A stretch of 64,000 nt of DNA from Candidatus Baltobacteraceae bacterium (GTDB taxonomy: Bacteria > Vulcanimicrobiota > Vulcanimicrobiia > Vulcanimicrobiales > Vulcanimicrobiaceae), in assembly GCA_036559195.1 (NCBI GenBank), contig DATBTN010000073.1, positions 1-64,000 of the forward strand, written 5' to 3'. Both the position numbers and the translations under genes were made by a program. Numbering within the stretch: the stretch's first letter is position 1; each line of letters opens with the position of its first letter. Below the pieces are notes generated by a model. The model saw only the letters and a program-made list of their open reading frames with translations, ran no database searches and had not been told where the DNA came from. Shown here one piece after another: positions 48,278-53,184 of this stretch.

Positions 48278-48511
48278 TTACGAGGCGACGTACCGGTACT
48301 GCCCCGGCTGCCATCTGCAAACGCTCTTGTCGCGCATTGCGAACGACTCGCAGCCGTCTACGTCTGCGTTGAAATCGACGTTGAGCGATTTGGTTGCTTC
48401 CCAATCGACCGCCGGTTCTTGCCGCGCCGCCGCGCGCGCCTTCGTGTAGGCGAACTGCGGGTTCTTCGTGAGCGCGTTGAGCGCTTGCGCGAGGCGCTGG
48501 GCGTCAGTCAC
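48278..48511 (-). CDS. Small hypothetical protein
   Basis: 77 residues, not recognised. It is hydrophilic, with two cysteines (DVDGCESFA and KSVCRWQ) and no signal peptide or membrane segment. GTG start at 48509-48511 lies six bases after the infA stop on the same strand, so it is probably co-transcribed. The coding call rests on that spacing and on its codon use; it could also be a chance frame. Confidence 0.5.
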   Translation of the reverse strand: MTDAQRLAQALNALTKNPQFAYTKARAAARQEPAVDWEATKSLNVDFNADVDGCESFAMRDKSVCRWQPGQYRYVAS

Positions 48512-48517
48512 GCGGCA

Positions 48518-48820
48518 CTACGTGCGGCGCGGTTCTCCCGCACGATAGCGATAGACGATGCGTCCCTTCGTCAGATCGTACGGCGAGAGTTCGAGATCGA
48601 CGCGATCCCCGGGAAGAATTTTGATGCGATGGCGGCGCAGACGCCCGGCGATATGCGCGAGAATCGTGTGACCGTTCTCAAGCTCGACCGAAAACGTCGT
48701 GCTGGGGAAGATCTGTTTGATCGTGCCGAAGACTTCGAGCGGCGCTTCTTTCGTCGGCTCGGCGGCGGGCCGCGGCGTGCTGGGGCGCGGTGATTTTTTT
48801 CGGCTATTCCGAGCGGCTAT
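48518..48820 (-). CDS. infA: Translation initiation factor IF-1 with non-standard start codon
   Basis: The frame encodes IF-1 clearly: [39 protein letters not shown] and [20 protein letters not shown], ending [10 protein letters not shown]-1 binds the 30S A site during initiation. Between the upstream in-frame TAG and the stop there is no ATG, GTG or TTG codon. GTGAGG at 48826-48831 reads on the minus strand as a ribosome binding site; AUA at 48818-48820 is five bases away and AUC at 48821-48823 two. I use the AUA, giving 100 residues with a basic, proline-rich N-terminal extension. ACG at 48752-48754, next to the conserved KEAPLEV, is another candidate. A frameshift in the A7 run at 48794-48800 would not rescue a standard start, since the other two frames are closed upstream. 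Confidence 0.82.
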
Positions 48821-48940
48821 GATGGCCTCACTTTCAAAACGTGCATACCGGTAGAACTCAGACTACGACAAGGAAGTTGTGTTTGCAAAGAAACCGAACG
48901 GACGTTCGACCGGGCGGAGTAGCGGGCCTCCCGCCGGCTG

Positions 48941-48976
48941 CAAAACGAACGGACCGGCTAACCGCCGGTCCGTTCG
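48941..48976 (-). terminator. Intrinsic terminator downstream of fumC
   Basis: On the plus strand CGAACGGACCGGC (48946-48958), a five-base loop and GCCGGTCCGTTCG (48964-48976) form a perfect 13-pair stem. Read on the minus strand it is followed by GTTTTG, so it should end the fumC transcript before infA. Confidence 0.85.
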
Positions 48977-48996
48977 CCGCTCGCTCGCTGCGGGTC

Positions 48997-50427
48997 CTAT
49001 TTGGGATACGTCATCTCTTTGGGGACGACGAAGGCGTCGAATTCTTCGGAGGTCACGTAGCCCAAGCCGACCGCGGTCTCTTTGAGCGTCGCCTTATTGT
49101 GATGCGCCTTTTTGGCGATCTCCGCGGCCTTGTCGTACCCGATCTTCGGGGAAAGGGCGGTGACCGTCATGAGGGATTCACTCAAGTACTTCGCAATGAT
49201 ATCTTCGTTGGCTTGCAGCCCAACGACGGCGTGCTCGCGGAACATCGTGCACGTATCGCGCAGTAAATTGCACGAGTGCAGGAAGTTGTAGATCATCACC
49301 GGGTTAAAGACGTTGAGTTCGAAGTTGCCCTGCGAGGCACCAAAGCTGATCGCGAGATCGTTTCCGAACACTTGCGCGACGACCATCGTCATCGCTTCGG
49401 ATTGCGTCGGATTCACTTTGCCCGGCATGATCGAGCTGCCCGGCTCGTTCTCCGGAAGGGTGAGTTCGCCGATCCCGGCGCGGGGACCCGACGAGAGCCA
49501 GCGGATGTCGTTGGCGATCTTCATGAGCGCCGCACCGAGCATCTTGAGCGCGCCCGAGGCGAAAACGAAGTCATCGTGCGAGGCGAGCGCGGTGAACTTG
49601 TTCGGGTGCGACCGCAGCGGCAGACCGGTCAGCTCGGCGAGTTTTTTCGCCGCGCGATCCGCGAATTCGGGATGGGCGTTGAGCCCCGTTCCAACGGCCG
49701 TTCCGCCGATGGCGAGATCGTAGAGATGGTTGAGCGCTTCGTTGCAGGCGACCATCGCACGATCGATTTGGGTCACGTAGCCCGAGAACTCTTGGCCGAG
49801 CGTGAGCGGCGTGGCATCCTGCAAATGCGTACGGCCGACCTTCACGATCTCTTTCCACTGCTTGGACTTCGCGTCGAGCGCGTCGCGCAATTTTTTCACG
49901 GCCGGCAGCATCTCGACCATCGCCTCGGCCGCCGCCATATGCATGGCCGTCGGAAAGGTGTCGTTCGAGGACTGCGACATGTTCACGTGATCGTTCGGAT
50001 GCACGGGCTTCTTGCTGCCCATCTCGCCGCCGGCGATCTCGATCGCACGGTTCGAGATCACCTCGTTGACGTTCATGTTCGTCTGCGTCCCCGAGCCGGT
50101 CTGCCACACGCGCAGCGGGAAGTGCGCGTCGAGTTTACCGGCGATCACTTCGTCGGCCGCGGCGACGATCAGGTTCTTCTTCGCTTCGTCGAGCTTGCCC
50201 AGATCGTTATTGACGAGCGCGGCGGCTTTCTTGAGCGTAGCCATCGCTTTGATGACGGCCTTGGGCATCTGATCGCGCGGCGTGCTGCCGTCGCCGATAT
50301 CGAAATGGATGAGCGAGCGCGCCGATTGCGCGCCGTAATACTTGTCCGCGGGTACGTCAATGGGTCCCATCGAGTCTGACTCGACGCGCGTTTTGGCCCC
50401 GTTGGTGTTCAAATTCGCAGTGGTCAT
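48997..50427 (-). CDS. fumC: Class II fumarate hydratase
   Basis: 476 residues. It hydrates fumarate to malate in the citric acid cycle. Family signatures: [52 protein letters not shown], and [16 protein letters not shown] with the catalytic Ser. Length is usual for a class II (iron-free, homotetrameric) enzyme. ATG at 50425-50427. It is followed by a strong terminator, so it is a single-gene unit. Confidence 0.97.
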
Positions 50428-50470: not shown

Positions 50471-51031
50471 CTAGGTCGCAGGCCGCCTGCCCTGGGCCGC
50501 GGCCCCCAAGGTCGTGCCGACGGGCCGAGTCTCCACCACCTCGAAAATCGTGAGGGGAAACCGAGGATCGAAGCCCCGCCGCGAGCAGCGGCCGCAGCTC
50601 ATCGGGGCGGCCGGGCGGCGCTTTCGAAGGACCTCCATGGCGCAACGCTCGCAACGCAAAATATAGCGCTTGGCGGATTCGTTGAGCGGCCTCGCGCTGC
50701 CCAAATCGTGGTAGATCGAGGTCAGACCACATTCGCGCATCTTCTTCTTGAAGCGCGCGCCGTGACCCGTATCGCGATGACGGTCGAAGAGCCAGGCGTG
50801 AATCATCTCGTGCAAGAGCGTCTCGCGCAGCGCCTCGGGATGAGTCTGGAAATGCTTGGGCGAGAGTTCGATCAGCAGCGGCCGCACGCTATAGGTGATG
50901 CGCCCGGCGGAGTTTGAAAAGCGCGCGTTGTACCGAATGCGGCAGGCCGGTACTTCACCGTTGAAATGAAAGTTATTGAGCTCCGCGAAGAGCAACTGGA
51001 GATCGGTCTCCGAAGCCTGCACCGTTATCAC
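50471..51031 (-). CDS. SprT-like zinc metalloprotease
   Basis: 186 residues. The HEMIH zinc motif is in [20 protein letters not shown] (with the third His in GHGARF), and a C-terminal zinc ribbon has CERCAME and CGRCSRR. This is the SprT/Spartan-like family; in eukaryotes Spartan cleaves DNA-protein crosslinks, and bacterial SprT is poorly studied. It may have a DNA-repair role or act on other proteins. It is divergent from the TPR protein gene (34-base gap) and follows fumC in the same direction with a 43-base space. Confidence 0.85.
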
Positions 51032-51065
51032 GAAGAGTTTTTCGGCGTTCGTCCAAACGAGTCTT

Positions 51066-51515
51066 GTGCCCGATTCAAAACAACGCGGTTTACCGCCGCG
51101 CCTCTACGTGCCCATCGTTGCGGTCTTCGCGATCGTCTTCTTGGGCGCGATGGCCTGGCTGCTTCGCATCGGATTCGGCACGAGCGGCGGCGTCTTCGGT
51201 TCGGGAACCGGAGCGCCGGCGGCCGGAGCGAGCGCGCTGCCCGTCTCCGCGCAGTCGCAGGGTTCCAACGTCAACGTCGAAGGCGGAGGTCCGCCGCCGG
51301 CGGTGCAGGTGCAGCTCGCGCAGTTGCGCGCGCGCATAACGAAGAATCCGAAGGACGACGTCGCGCTCACGCAGCTCGCCGATCTCTACCTCGCGGCCGG
51401 CATGTACGCGAAAGCCGTTCCACTCTACAAACGAGCGCTAGCTGCCAACCCGCGCAACGCCGCCGCCGCCGAAGGCTTCAGCCAAGCACAAAACGCCCTC
51501 TCACAGGAGCACTAG
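51066..51515 (+). CDS. Single-pass membrane TPR protein
   Basis: 149 residues from GTG at 51066. One membrane segment (LYVPIVAVFAIVFLGAMAWLL) is followed by a Gly/Ala/Pro/Ser linker and a TPR pair (ALTQLADLYLAAGMYAKAVP and YKRALAANPRNAAAAEG). The layout resembles CcmH/NrfG-like or BamD-like scaffold proteins, but there is no cytochrome c assembly gene near. It lies 8 bases before the first M55 aminopeptidase gene. An upstream in-frame start at 50976 overlaps the SprT-like gene and is less likely. Confidence 0.72.
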   Translation: MPDSKQRGLPPRLYVPIVAVFAIVFLGAMAWLLRIGFGTSGGVFGSGTGAPAAGASALPVSAQSQGSNVNVEGGGPPPAVQVQLAQLRARITKNPKDDVALTQLADLYLAAGMYAKAVPLYKRALAANPRNAAAAEGFSQAQNALSQEH

Positions 51516-51523
51516 ACACAAGC

Positions 51524-52357
51524 GTGCGCATTTATATTTCTTGCGACATGGAAGGCACGGCGGGGGTTTGCAGCTGGATGCAGTGCGACCCGTCGAATAC
51601 GGTCGAGTATCCCGTCTACCGGCGATACATGTCGCAGGAAGTGCGCGCGGCAATCGAAGGCGCCCGCAGCGGCGGCGCGACGGGCGTGCTGATCAACGAC
51701 TCGCACTGGGATATGCGCAACCTGCTTTGGGACGAGTTGCCGGCCGACGTGCGCCTGATCTCCGGTTCGCGCAAGCCCTTTTCGATGGCGCAGGGTATCG
51801 ATGGCGACGTTGCCGGCGCGTTCTTTACCGGCTATCACGCGAAGTCGGGCGATAAGGACGGGGCGCTCGCGCACACCTACACCGCCGACGTCCTTTACAA
51901 CGTGCGCATCAACGGAACGGCGTGCAGCGAAGCGCTCTTAAACGCGGCGCTGCTCGGTTACCACGGCGTGCCGCTGCTGCTCGTAAGCGGCGATCGCACG
52001 ATCGTCGAAGAGGTCGGCCGGCAGATGCCGTGGGTTACCCCGGTGATCGTCAAGGAGAGCATCGGGCACTACGCAACCAATTCGCTCACGCCGGCGGCAG
52101 CTCAGGCGGCGATTCGCGCTGCGGCCGGCGACGCGATGCGGAACGCCGGATCGGCGAAACCGTTCGTCTTCGAGCCTCCGATTAGGATGGAGCTGGAAAC
52201 GACGCGCGTGGAACAAGCGGATTTCATCGAGTTGATGCCCGGCTTCGAGCGCATCGGCGGCCGCACGGTACGATTCGTTCACGACGATTATGCCGCCGTA
52301 TTCCGCGCGTTCGTGGCGGCCTTTCGTTTGGGCGGCGCCGCCTCGGTCGTGGCATGA
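51524..52357 (+). CDS. M55 D-aminopeptidase (DppA-like), first copy
   Basis: 277 residues from the GTG at 51524. The M55 binuclear zinc site is visible: Asp8 and Glu10 in ISCDMEG, His61 in INDSHWDM, and His in TGYHAKSG. DppA of Bacillus subtilis cleaves D-Ala-D-Ala-type dipeptides from the N-terminus. It is probably cytoplasmic, since no signal peptide is present. It is followed by a paralog with a four-base overlap (ATGA). Possible role: recycling of D-amino-acid peptides from the cell wall. Confidence 0.9.
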   Translation: MRIYISCDMEGTAGVCSWMQCDPSNTVEYPVYRRYMSQEVRAAIEGARSGGATGVLINDSHWDMRNLLWDELPADVRLISGSRKPFSMAQGIDGDVAGAFFTGYHAKSGDKDGALAHTYTADVLYNVRINGTACSEALLNAALLGYHGVPLLLVSGDRTIVEEVGRQMPWVTPVIVKESIGHYATNSLTPAAAQAAIRAAAGDAMRNAGSAKPFVFEPPIRMELETTRVEQADFIELMPGFERIGGRTVRFVHDDYAAVFRAFVAAFRLGGAASVVA

Positions 52358-53184
52358 AGCTCTACATTTCGAGCGACATGGAAGGCGTCGCCGGCGTCTG
52401 CAGTTGGGAGCAAGTCGACGCGCGCGGTTACACGCCCGAATACGCGATCTATCAGCGCTATCTCACGCAGGAAGTCCGCGCTGCCATCGACGGCGCGCGC
52501 GATGCGGCCGCGTGCGAGATCCTGGTCAACGACTCGCACGGTCCGATGCGCAATCTGCTCTTCGACGGTTTACCCGACAACATCCGCGTCACGTTCGGAA
52601 ATCGCAAACCCTTCTCGATGGTGCAGGGTATCGATGCGGGTTTCGACGGCGTCTTCTTCACCGGCTATCACGCGGCGATCGGCTCGGCCGGCGCCACGCT
52701 CTGTCACACGTATACGCCCGGCGTGATCTACGATCTGCGGGTCAACGGCGTGCGCTGCAGCGAGGCGACGCTCAACGCCGGCCTCGCCGGACACTACGGC
52801 GTGCCCGTGCTGTTGGTAACCGGAGATCGCACGACGATCGCGGAGGTCACCGCGCAGATGCCGTGGGTGACCGGTGCGATCGTGAAGGACAGCATCGGGC
52901 ACTTGGCCGTCGACTCGCTCTCGCCCCAAGCCGCGCAGGCTGCCATACGCGCCGCCGCGACCGACGCCGTACGGAACGCCGCCGGGGCTAAGCCGTACGT
53001 CTTCGAGCCGCCCATTACGTTGGAGATCGACGTCACGCGTGTCGAGCAGGCCGACCTTATCGAATTGATTCCCGGCTTCGAACGCACGGCCGGCCGCACC
53101 GTCCGGCTGGTGCATGACGACTATCCGACCGTCTTTAAAGCCTTCGTCGCGGCCTTCCGAATGGGAGCGCTCGCGCTCTCCTAA
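52354..53184 (+). CDS. M55 D-aminopeptidase (DppA-like), second copy
   Basis: 276 residues. Zinc site: Asp8 and Glu10 in ISSDMEG, His in VNDSHGPM and His in TGYHAAIG. It is colinear with the preceding copy over its whole length, and both end in GFER..GRTVR(L/F)VHDDY. The ATG overlaps the first gene's TGA. Two subunits may form a hetero-oligomer (DppA is a decamer of one type), or the copies may differ in substrate. Convergent with the MFS gene by four bases. Confidence 0.9.
   Translation: MKLYISSDMEGVAGVCSWEQVDARGYTPEYAIYQRYLTQEVRAAIDGARDAAACEILVNDSHGPMRNLLFDGLPDNIRVTFGNRKPFSMVQGIDAGFDGVFFTGYHAAIGSAGATLCHTYTPGVIYDLRVNGVRCSEATLNAGLAGHYGVPVLLVTGDRTTIAEVTAQMPWVTGAIVKDSIGHLAVDSLSPQAAQAAIRAAATDAVRNAAGAKPYVFEPPITLEIDVTRVEQADLIELIPGFERTAGRTVRLVHDDYPTVFKAFVAAFRMGALALS

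Follow-up and report, generated by a model that had tools for sequence, protein, structure and literature searches.

The infA gene of Candidatus Baltobacteraceae bacterium (GenBank assembly GCA_036559195.1), encoding translation initiation factor IF-1, is well supported by comparison with its relatives as being translated from an AUA codon or the AUC codon adjoining it, rather than from ATG, GTG or TTG (here termed canonical). Such starts, written AUH (where H is A, C or U), are kept as a class at the head of most stand-alone infA genes across the Vulcanimicrobiota (Eremiobacterota), a lineage consisting mostly of uncultured bacteria. The reading favoured here is that infA probably joins infC, the gene for IF-3, in a start-codon feedback in which IF-3, helped by IF-1, would reject AUH codons. 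The gene lies on the minus strand of the window, the 64,000-nucleotide stretch of contig DATBTN010000073.1 that was analysed.

Results

The infA reading frame

A preliminary description of this DNA had claimed a complete IF-1 in a frame devoid of ATG, GTG and TTG, which is confirmed by profile matches and by a scan of the frame. The minus-strand frame extending from an upstream TAG to the stop at 48520-48518 (Table 1) encodes a full IF-1, matching TIGR00008 at 103.2 bits (cut-off 61.15) over model positions 1-69 of 69, and PF01176 at 85.6 bits (cut-off 30.2). No ATG, GTG or TTG occurs between the TAG and the stop, the IF-1 domain included; in the phylum, six of 71 infA copies of the stand-alone kind described below lack these codons even inside the domain. 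The places given in the preliminary description for the GTGAGG motif, the AUC, the AUA, the A7 run and the ACG were all correct on the letters. In no other frame at the locus does a canonical upstream start stay open into the domain.

The source genome (2.48 Mb in 80 contigs, with a completeness of 96.9%) yielded a single PF01176 match in a profile search of its contigs, namely this gene, and the 41 bases separating map and rpmJ in its ribosomal operon, where the order is map-rpmJ-rpsM, contain no infA. A second intact infA, named in the preliminary description as evidence that would tell against this copy, was not found in this genome of 96.9% completeness; with one match and none in the operon, an essential factor thus seems to depend on the frame at 48518-48820. 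No fumC neighbourhood was found by other stand-alone infA genes within the fetched stretches, which reach 1-2 kb. Elsewhere in the window, two adjacent plus-strand frames at 50966-53184 encode similar proteins beginning (M)xxYISxDMEGxAGVCSW, a tandem pair that we take to be D-aminopeptidases (DppA-like) from their appearance.

Table 1. Coordinates, within the window, of the infA gene and of the sequence features around its start.
Feature	Position	Strand	Remarks
infA CDS	48518..48820	-	AUA 48820-48818 to TAG 48520-48518; 100 residues; N-terminal basic extension and IF-1 OB-fold domain
In-frame TAG closing the infA frame upstream	48863..48865	-	
AUA, likeliest start codon	48818..48820	-	aligned relatives have ATA-GCN
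AUC, alternative start adjoining AUA	48821..48823	-	two consecutive AUH codons also in several relatives
GTGAGG with Shine-Dalgarno core GAGG	48826..48831	-	4-nt match, a level also reached by 32% of control windows
A7 run	48794..48800	-	
ACG, third candidate of the preliminary description	48752..48754	-	rejected as start

Distribution of AUH starts in the Vulcanimicrobiota

Matches to PF01176 were present in 136 of the 149 genomes of the phylum, and frames were read in 140 fetched loci among the matches listed. Two further loci, L140 and L142, were truncated at the end of a contig or stretch and set aside at frame reading, and three were omitted before the tally: L139 and L141, operon copies with a broken frame, and L143, which has undetermined bases. 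After L246, L175 and L178 had been retyped from B to A, the final sets comprised 71 stand-alone copies (types B and C, as at 48518-48820) and 66 of type A; the seven canonical and four ambiguous starts among the stand-alone copies were decided by visual inspection ahead of the tally.

An AUH codon occupies the start place in 60 of the 71 stand-alone genes, representing 22 of 27 genera (frames of fetched loci), and is AUA in 24, AUU in 20 and AUC in 16. A second, canonical codon lies 18-32 codons ahead of the domain in four of these 60 loci, while 37 of the 71 stand-alone copies (20 genera) have no ATG, GTG or TTG from the upstream stop, or stretch end, to the domain. The conservation for which the preliminary description had looked to relatives is therefore present, the AUA/AUC/AUU class and its place being kept in those 22 genera. 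Canonical starts in relatives, which it had named as evidence to the contrary, were encountered only as a minority: seven of the 71 begin at ATG or TTG (genera g6, g10, g13, g14 and g26), with four more ambiguous, so the AUH device is not universal. In genomes with a completeness of at least 90% and contamination of at most 5% whose single match was a stand-alone copy, a hand count among the matches listed gave AUH in 27 of 32, a canonical codon in four and an ambiguous start in one. Within genus g26, the stand-alone gene has TTG in three loci, and in the remaining three the start could be either ATT or TTG (L227, L229, L230, L131, L217 and L219 in all), a pattern that may point to a recent changeover between the AUH and canonical classes.

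By contrast with the stand-alone genes, type A copies have a canonical codon in frame in 65 of 66 cases, the exception, L243, beginning at a contig end. Most type A genes belong to the ribosomal operon: among 63 rows first typed A, map was found in 54 and rpmJ in 57 of the fetched stretches. A tree of 76 columns, many forks of which are not resolved, splits stand-alone from type A infA with 94/76 support. Ahead of its domain, the IF-1 at 48518-48820 has about 23 additional N-terminal residues in which Arg, Lys and Pro are abundant, and a similar extension is found in type A copies. The operon infA frame looks broken in L139 (G028) and L141 (G005), both of whose genomes also carry a stand-alone copy; this could be decay after replacement, or an assembly error.

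Evidence that the AUH codon is the start

In 27 of 57 loci the first AUH is preceded by an in-frame stop no more than 10 codons away, and in L117 and L200 only a single sense codon separates the stop from the AUA. A Shine-Dalgarno match of 5 nt or longer is found ahead of the AUH in 32 of 60 loci, compared with 5.7% of 296 control windows, and one of 6 nt or longer in 20 of 60, compared with none of the 296. In type C genes, AAGGAG is found 5-7 bases upstream of AUU or AUC in 11 of 11. A further 14 of the 60 AUH loci are without any 4-nt match, and the gene at 48518-48820 stands at 4 nt; the Shine-Dalgarno sequence for whose conservation the preliminary description had looked to relatives is common among them and weak at the locus itself.

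The distribution of substitutions between relatives is likewise in keeping with a coding sequence that begins at the AUH codon. Across 26 disjoint pairs, the three codon positions downstream of AUH differ at 172, 170 and 269 sites (P 1.5e-7), whereas the 33 nt upstream differ at 165, 145 and 145 (P 0.42), amounting to no third-position bias, although the rows are related and the P values consequently overstate independence. Codons 2-6 alone gave 10, 10 and 16 (P 0.37), this stretch being too short for a signal. AUA itself accounts for 24 of the 60 starts, compared with 16 of 372 isoleucine codons inside the same domains. With codon class and place conserved, a Shine-Dalgarno sequence usual and the arrangement recurring in a second phylum, the earlier claim that IF-1 is initiated at a non-standard codon is now strongly supported.

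Among the three start candidates of the preliminary description, the relatives point to AUA or the AUC next to it and not to the ACG: the latter lacks conservation, and the coding signal is already present upstream of its place, where 16 closer pairs show 35, 33 and 88 substitutions at the three positions (P 7e-9). Frameshifting from another frame was also rejected, there being no option for it at the locus and no conserved layout among relatives; a canonical start in another frame open into the domain exists in 16 of the 60 AUH loci, at varying frames and distances. Nor does a sequencing error or broken frame account for a feature seen in many independent assemblies with the IF-1 domain intact. 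In one of these, G008 (a single contig of 3.5 Mb, 99% complete), the only infA match begins AAGGAG...AUU. An RNA structure hiding the start was discarded too, as the 96-nt leader has no greater tendency to fold than shuffled versions of itself (z 0.83). A promoter scan of 48300-49100 detected no sigma-70-like promoter; -10-like boxes are visible by eye upstream of the infA genes of some relatives.

infA in other phyla and a second AUH lineage

Outside the Vulcanimicrobiota, infA had a canonical codon near the domain in 59 of 59 loci. The same was true of 58 of 60 loci drawn from the phyla to which an Enterorhabdus (Actinomycetota) and an Aliiroseovarius record belong, namely the 30 with the best scores from 100 genomes each, and of 16 of 16 loci from the phylum of the Zixibacteria record. 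Among 20 loci from the low end of the Enterorhabdus and Aliiroseovarius lists, the canonical codon was near the domain in 13, further up in six and absent in one. This last locus, L363 (G235), an operon-like infA of the Actinomycetota set, is without ATG, GTG or TTG upstream and may start at CTG, reading GAGGAGAAGTT-CTG-GCG.

The two exceptions among the 60 best-scoring loci (L295 and L304) fall in a single class of the Enterorhabdus phylum. This Actinomycetota class comprised 40 genomes, 39 of them with an infA match, of which 36 were read, the other three being partial matches at contig ends. All 36 genes have an AUH codon four codons ahead of the domain (AUU in 30, AUA in four and AUC in two), the same place at which other Actinomycetota infA genes start, and 31 of the 36 are without a canonical codon upstream in frame. 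A Shine-Dalgarno-like four-base core lies within the 18 nt before the second codon in all 36, a count made without control windows. The infA genes of this class are found near rpmJ. On a joint tree of 69 columns, for which the bootstrap had not settled, the Vulcanimicrobiota stand-alone genes form their own clade (100/100) apart from the Actinomycetota class; two origins of AUH-start infA therefore appear likely.

Start codons of infC

The infC gene of the source genome (TIGR00168, 207 bits; G000:C67, L161, L255), which lies outside the window, reads TAA-AAGGAG-AGACTC-AUA and has no normal start. Of 58 matching genomes in the Vulcanimicrobiota, 50 were read: AUH, mostly AUA, was present five codons before the RINDQ-like conserved stretch in 44 and one codon further up in four, giving 48 of 50; in 26 of the 50 loci the frame upstream is free of canonical codons. 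Among the 48, L165 carries an ATG two codons ahead of the AUH; the two exceptions are L156, cut by a contig end, and L258, without AUH at the expected place. Similarly, in the Actinomycetota class, where infC was read in 30 of 34 matching genomes, ATG was near the expected place in none of 30 and AUH in most, with a GTG upstream in L417. Six loci (L425, L429, L432, L433, L438 and L440) combine a strong Shine-Dalgarno sequence with neither AUH nor ATG, GTG or TTG at a usable distance. In other phyla, where infC was scored for presence only, matches were found in eight of nine genomes.

Discussion

A proposed start-codon feedback

The checking of start codons is mostly carried out by IF-3. AUU, AUC and AUA are reported as the codons subject to IF-3 discrimination, with IF-1 supporting this fidelity role (PMC4611024), and a high concentration of IF-3 leads to discrimination against its own AUU start (PMC9410913). 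Given this discrimination by IF-3 with the backing of IF-1, translation of infA, read from AUA or the adjoining AUC, would be expected to drop when both factors are abundant and to rise when they are scarce. The infC gene would respond equally, and since that of the same genome begins at AUA, the stringency of start-codon selection may act as a single sensor that adjusts IF-1 and IF-3 jointly. The stand-alone infA lies away from the ribosomal-protein operon, in which the infA start is normal, so the start codon may stand in for operon control.

The preliminary description had suggested an IF-1 checking its own start codon, a formulation that may be too narrow: IF-3 does most of the checking, which makes joint IF-1/IF-3 control the likelier arrangement when set beside control by IF-1 alone. 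Literature support for a joint role of IF-1 in discrimination is weaker than that for IF-3. Two features of infC-type autocontrol are found at infA, namely a start codon of the class rejected by IF-3 behind a Shine-Dalgarno sequence (AUA or AUC, with 4 nt) and conservation of that class (60/71 in the Vulcanimicrobiota and 36/36 in the second phylum).

Alternative explanations

The strongest competitor accepts AUH as the true start and has it merely fix a low, constant output of IF-1, without feedback from IF-1 or IF-3. AUH starts are generally weak, an AUU start occurs in Borrelia PncA, which is not an initiation factor (PMC13398362), and the scattered returns of infA to ATG or TTG fit constant weak expression and count against feedback. 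Weak expression is nevertheless reachable by many other routes, AUH is retained in 27 of 32 sole-copy genomes among the matches listed although AUG is one mutation off, and the codon class is common to infA and infC in two phyla; feedback is favoured on these grounds, and constant output is judged unlikely.

It is less probable still, at the level of an outside chance, that control passes through IF-3 alone, whose stringency would act on infA with no self-sensing by IF-1. Discrimination against AUU, AUC and AUA is indeed the work of IF-3, and infC in the Vulcanimicrobiota has the matching codon class, but IF-1 backs the fidelity of IF-3 (PMC4611024), so that some self-sensing by IF-1 would be expected.

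A general relaxation of initiation, by which these bacteria would use AUH starts freely, might be suggested by the occurrence of AUH in two different genes, infA and infC, and is rendered highly improbable by the two control genes, rpsM and rpmJ. Every rpsM (59 of 59) and every rpmJ (61 of 61) read in the phylum, mainly at operon loci of largely type A genomes, has a canonical start (ATG, TTG or GTG), both begin at ATG in the source genome, and rpmJ begins at ATG in 35 of 35 loci of the Actinomycetota class. Equally hard to credit is a start elsewhere (at ACG or through a frameshift), or a frame broken or wrongly sequenced: the genome is metagenome-derived, judging by its relatives, and what is missing at 96.9% completeness could hold a second infA, but many independent assemblies agree, including G008, the ACG is unconserved and inside the coding signal, no frameshift layout is conserved and the IF-1 domain is intact.

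Comparison with known systems

Autocontrol of infC is a textbook case, and translational autocontrol of the E. coli gene through its AUU start was reportedly described by Butler in 1987. E. coli infC resembles the present gene in being an initiation factor gene with a start class discriminated by IF-3 (PMC9410913, PMC4611024), but it encodes IF-3 and begins at AUU, whereas the gene here is infA, the feedback is one that we infer, and the local infC begins mostly at AUA. The chloroplast infA of Chlorella and tobacco is likewise an IF-1 gene with a non-AUG start, UUG, the change of which to AUG raised output strongly (PMC9845219). UUG, however, is in the canonical class spared by IF-3 (PMC4611024), and the gene is a plastid one that shows no class-wide AUH conservation. 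Borrelia pncA, also bacterial, has its translation start at AUU and had been mis-annotated as a truncated gene (PMC13398362), but it specifies a metabolic enzyme unconnected with initiation factors.

The autoregulation of eukaryotic eIF1 also involves a start-policing initiation factor whose own start site is poor. In that case it is the context around an AUG that is poor, rather than the codon being non-AUG, and the system is otherwise unrelated. A 2020 preprint by Gvozdjak and Samanta is said to treat bacterial genes preferring non-AUG starts, and may touch on AUH infA. Searches of one open-access library yielded no account of an AUA, AUC or AUU start in a bacterial infA gene, the nearest being the UUG of chloroplast infA (PMC9845219).

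Implications

A second initiation factor with an infC-like start codon, present in two phyla, makes the in vivo role of IF-1 in start stringency directly testable, together with the idea that initiation factors are balanced through the start codon itself. To our knowledge, little has been established of how cells set their level of IF-1. The evidence leaves evenly poised the broader proposal of a start-codon regulon, in which the levels of IF-1 and IF-3 would be set by initiation stringency, which would have arisen at least twice (in the Vulcanimicrobiota and in the Actinomycetota class), and both genes of which would be missed or shortened by gene finders. Programs limited to ATG, GTG and TTG may thus overlook or truncate infA and infC, both essential, in these groups.
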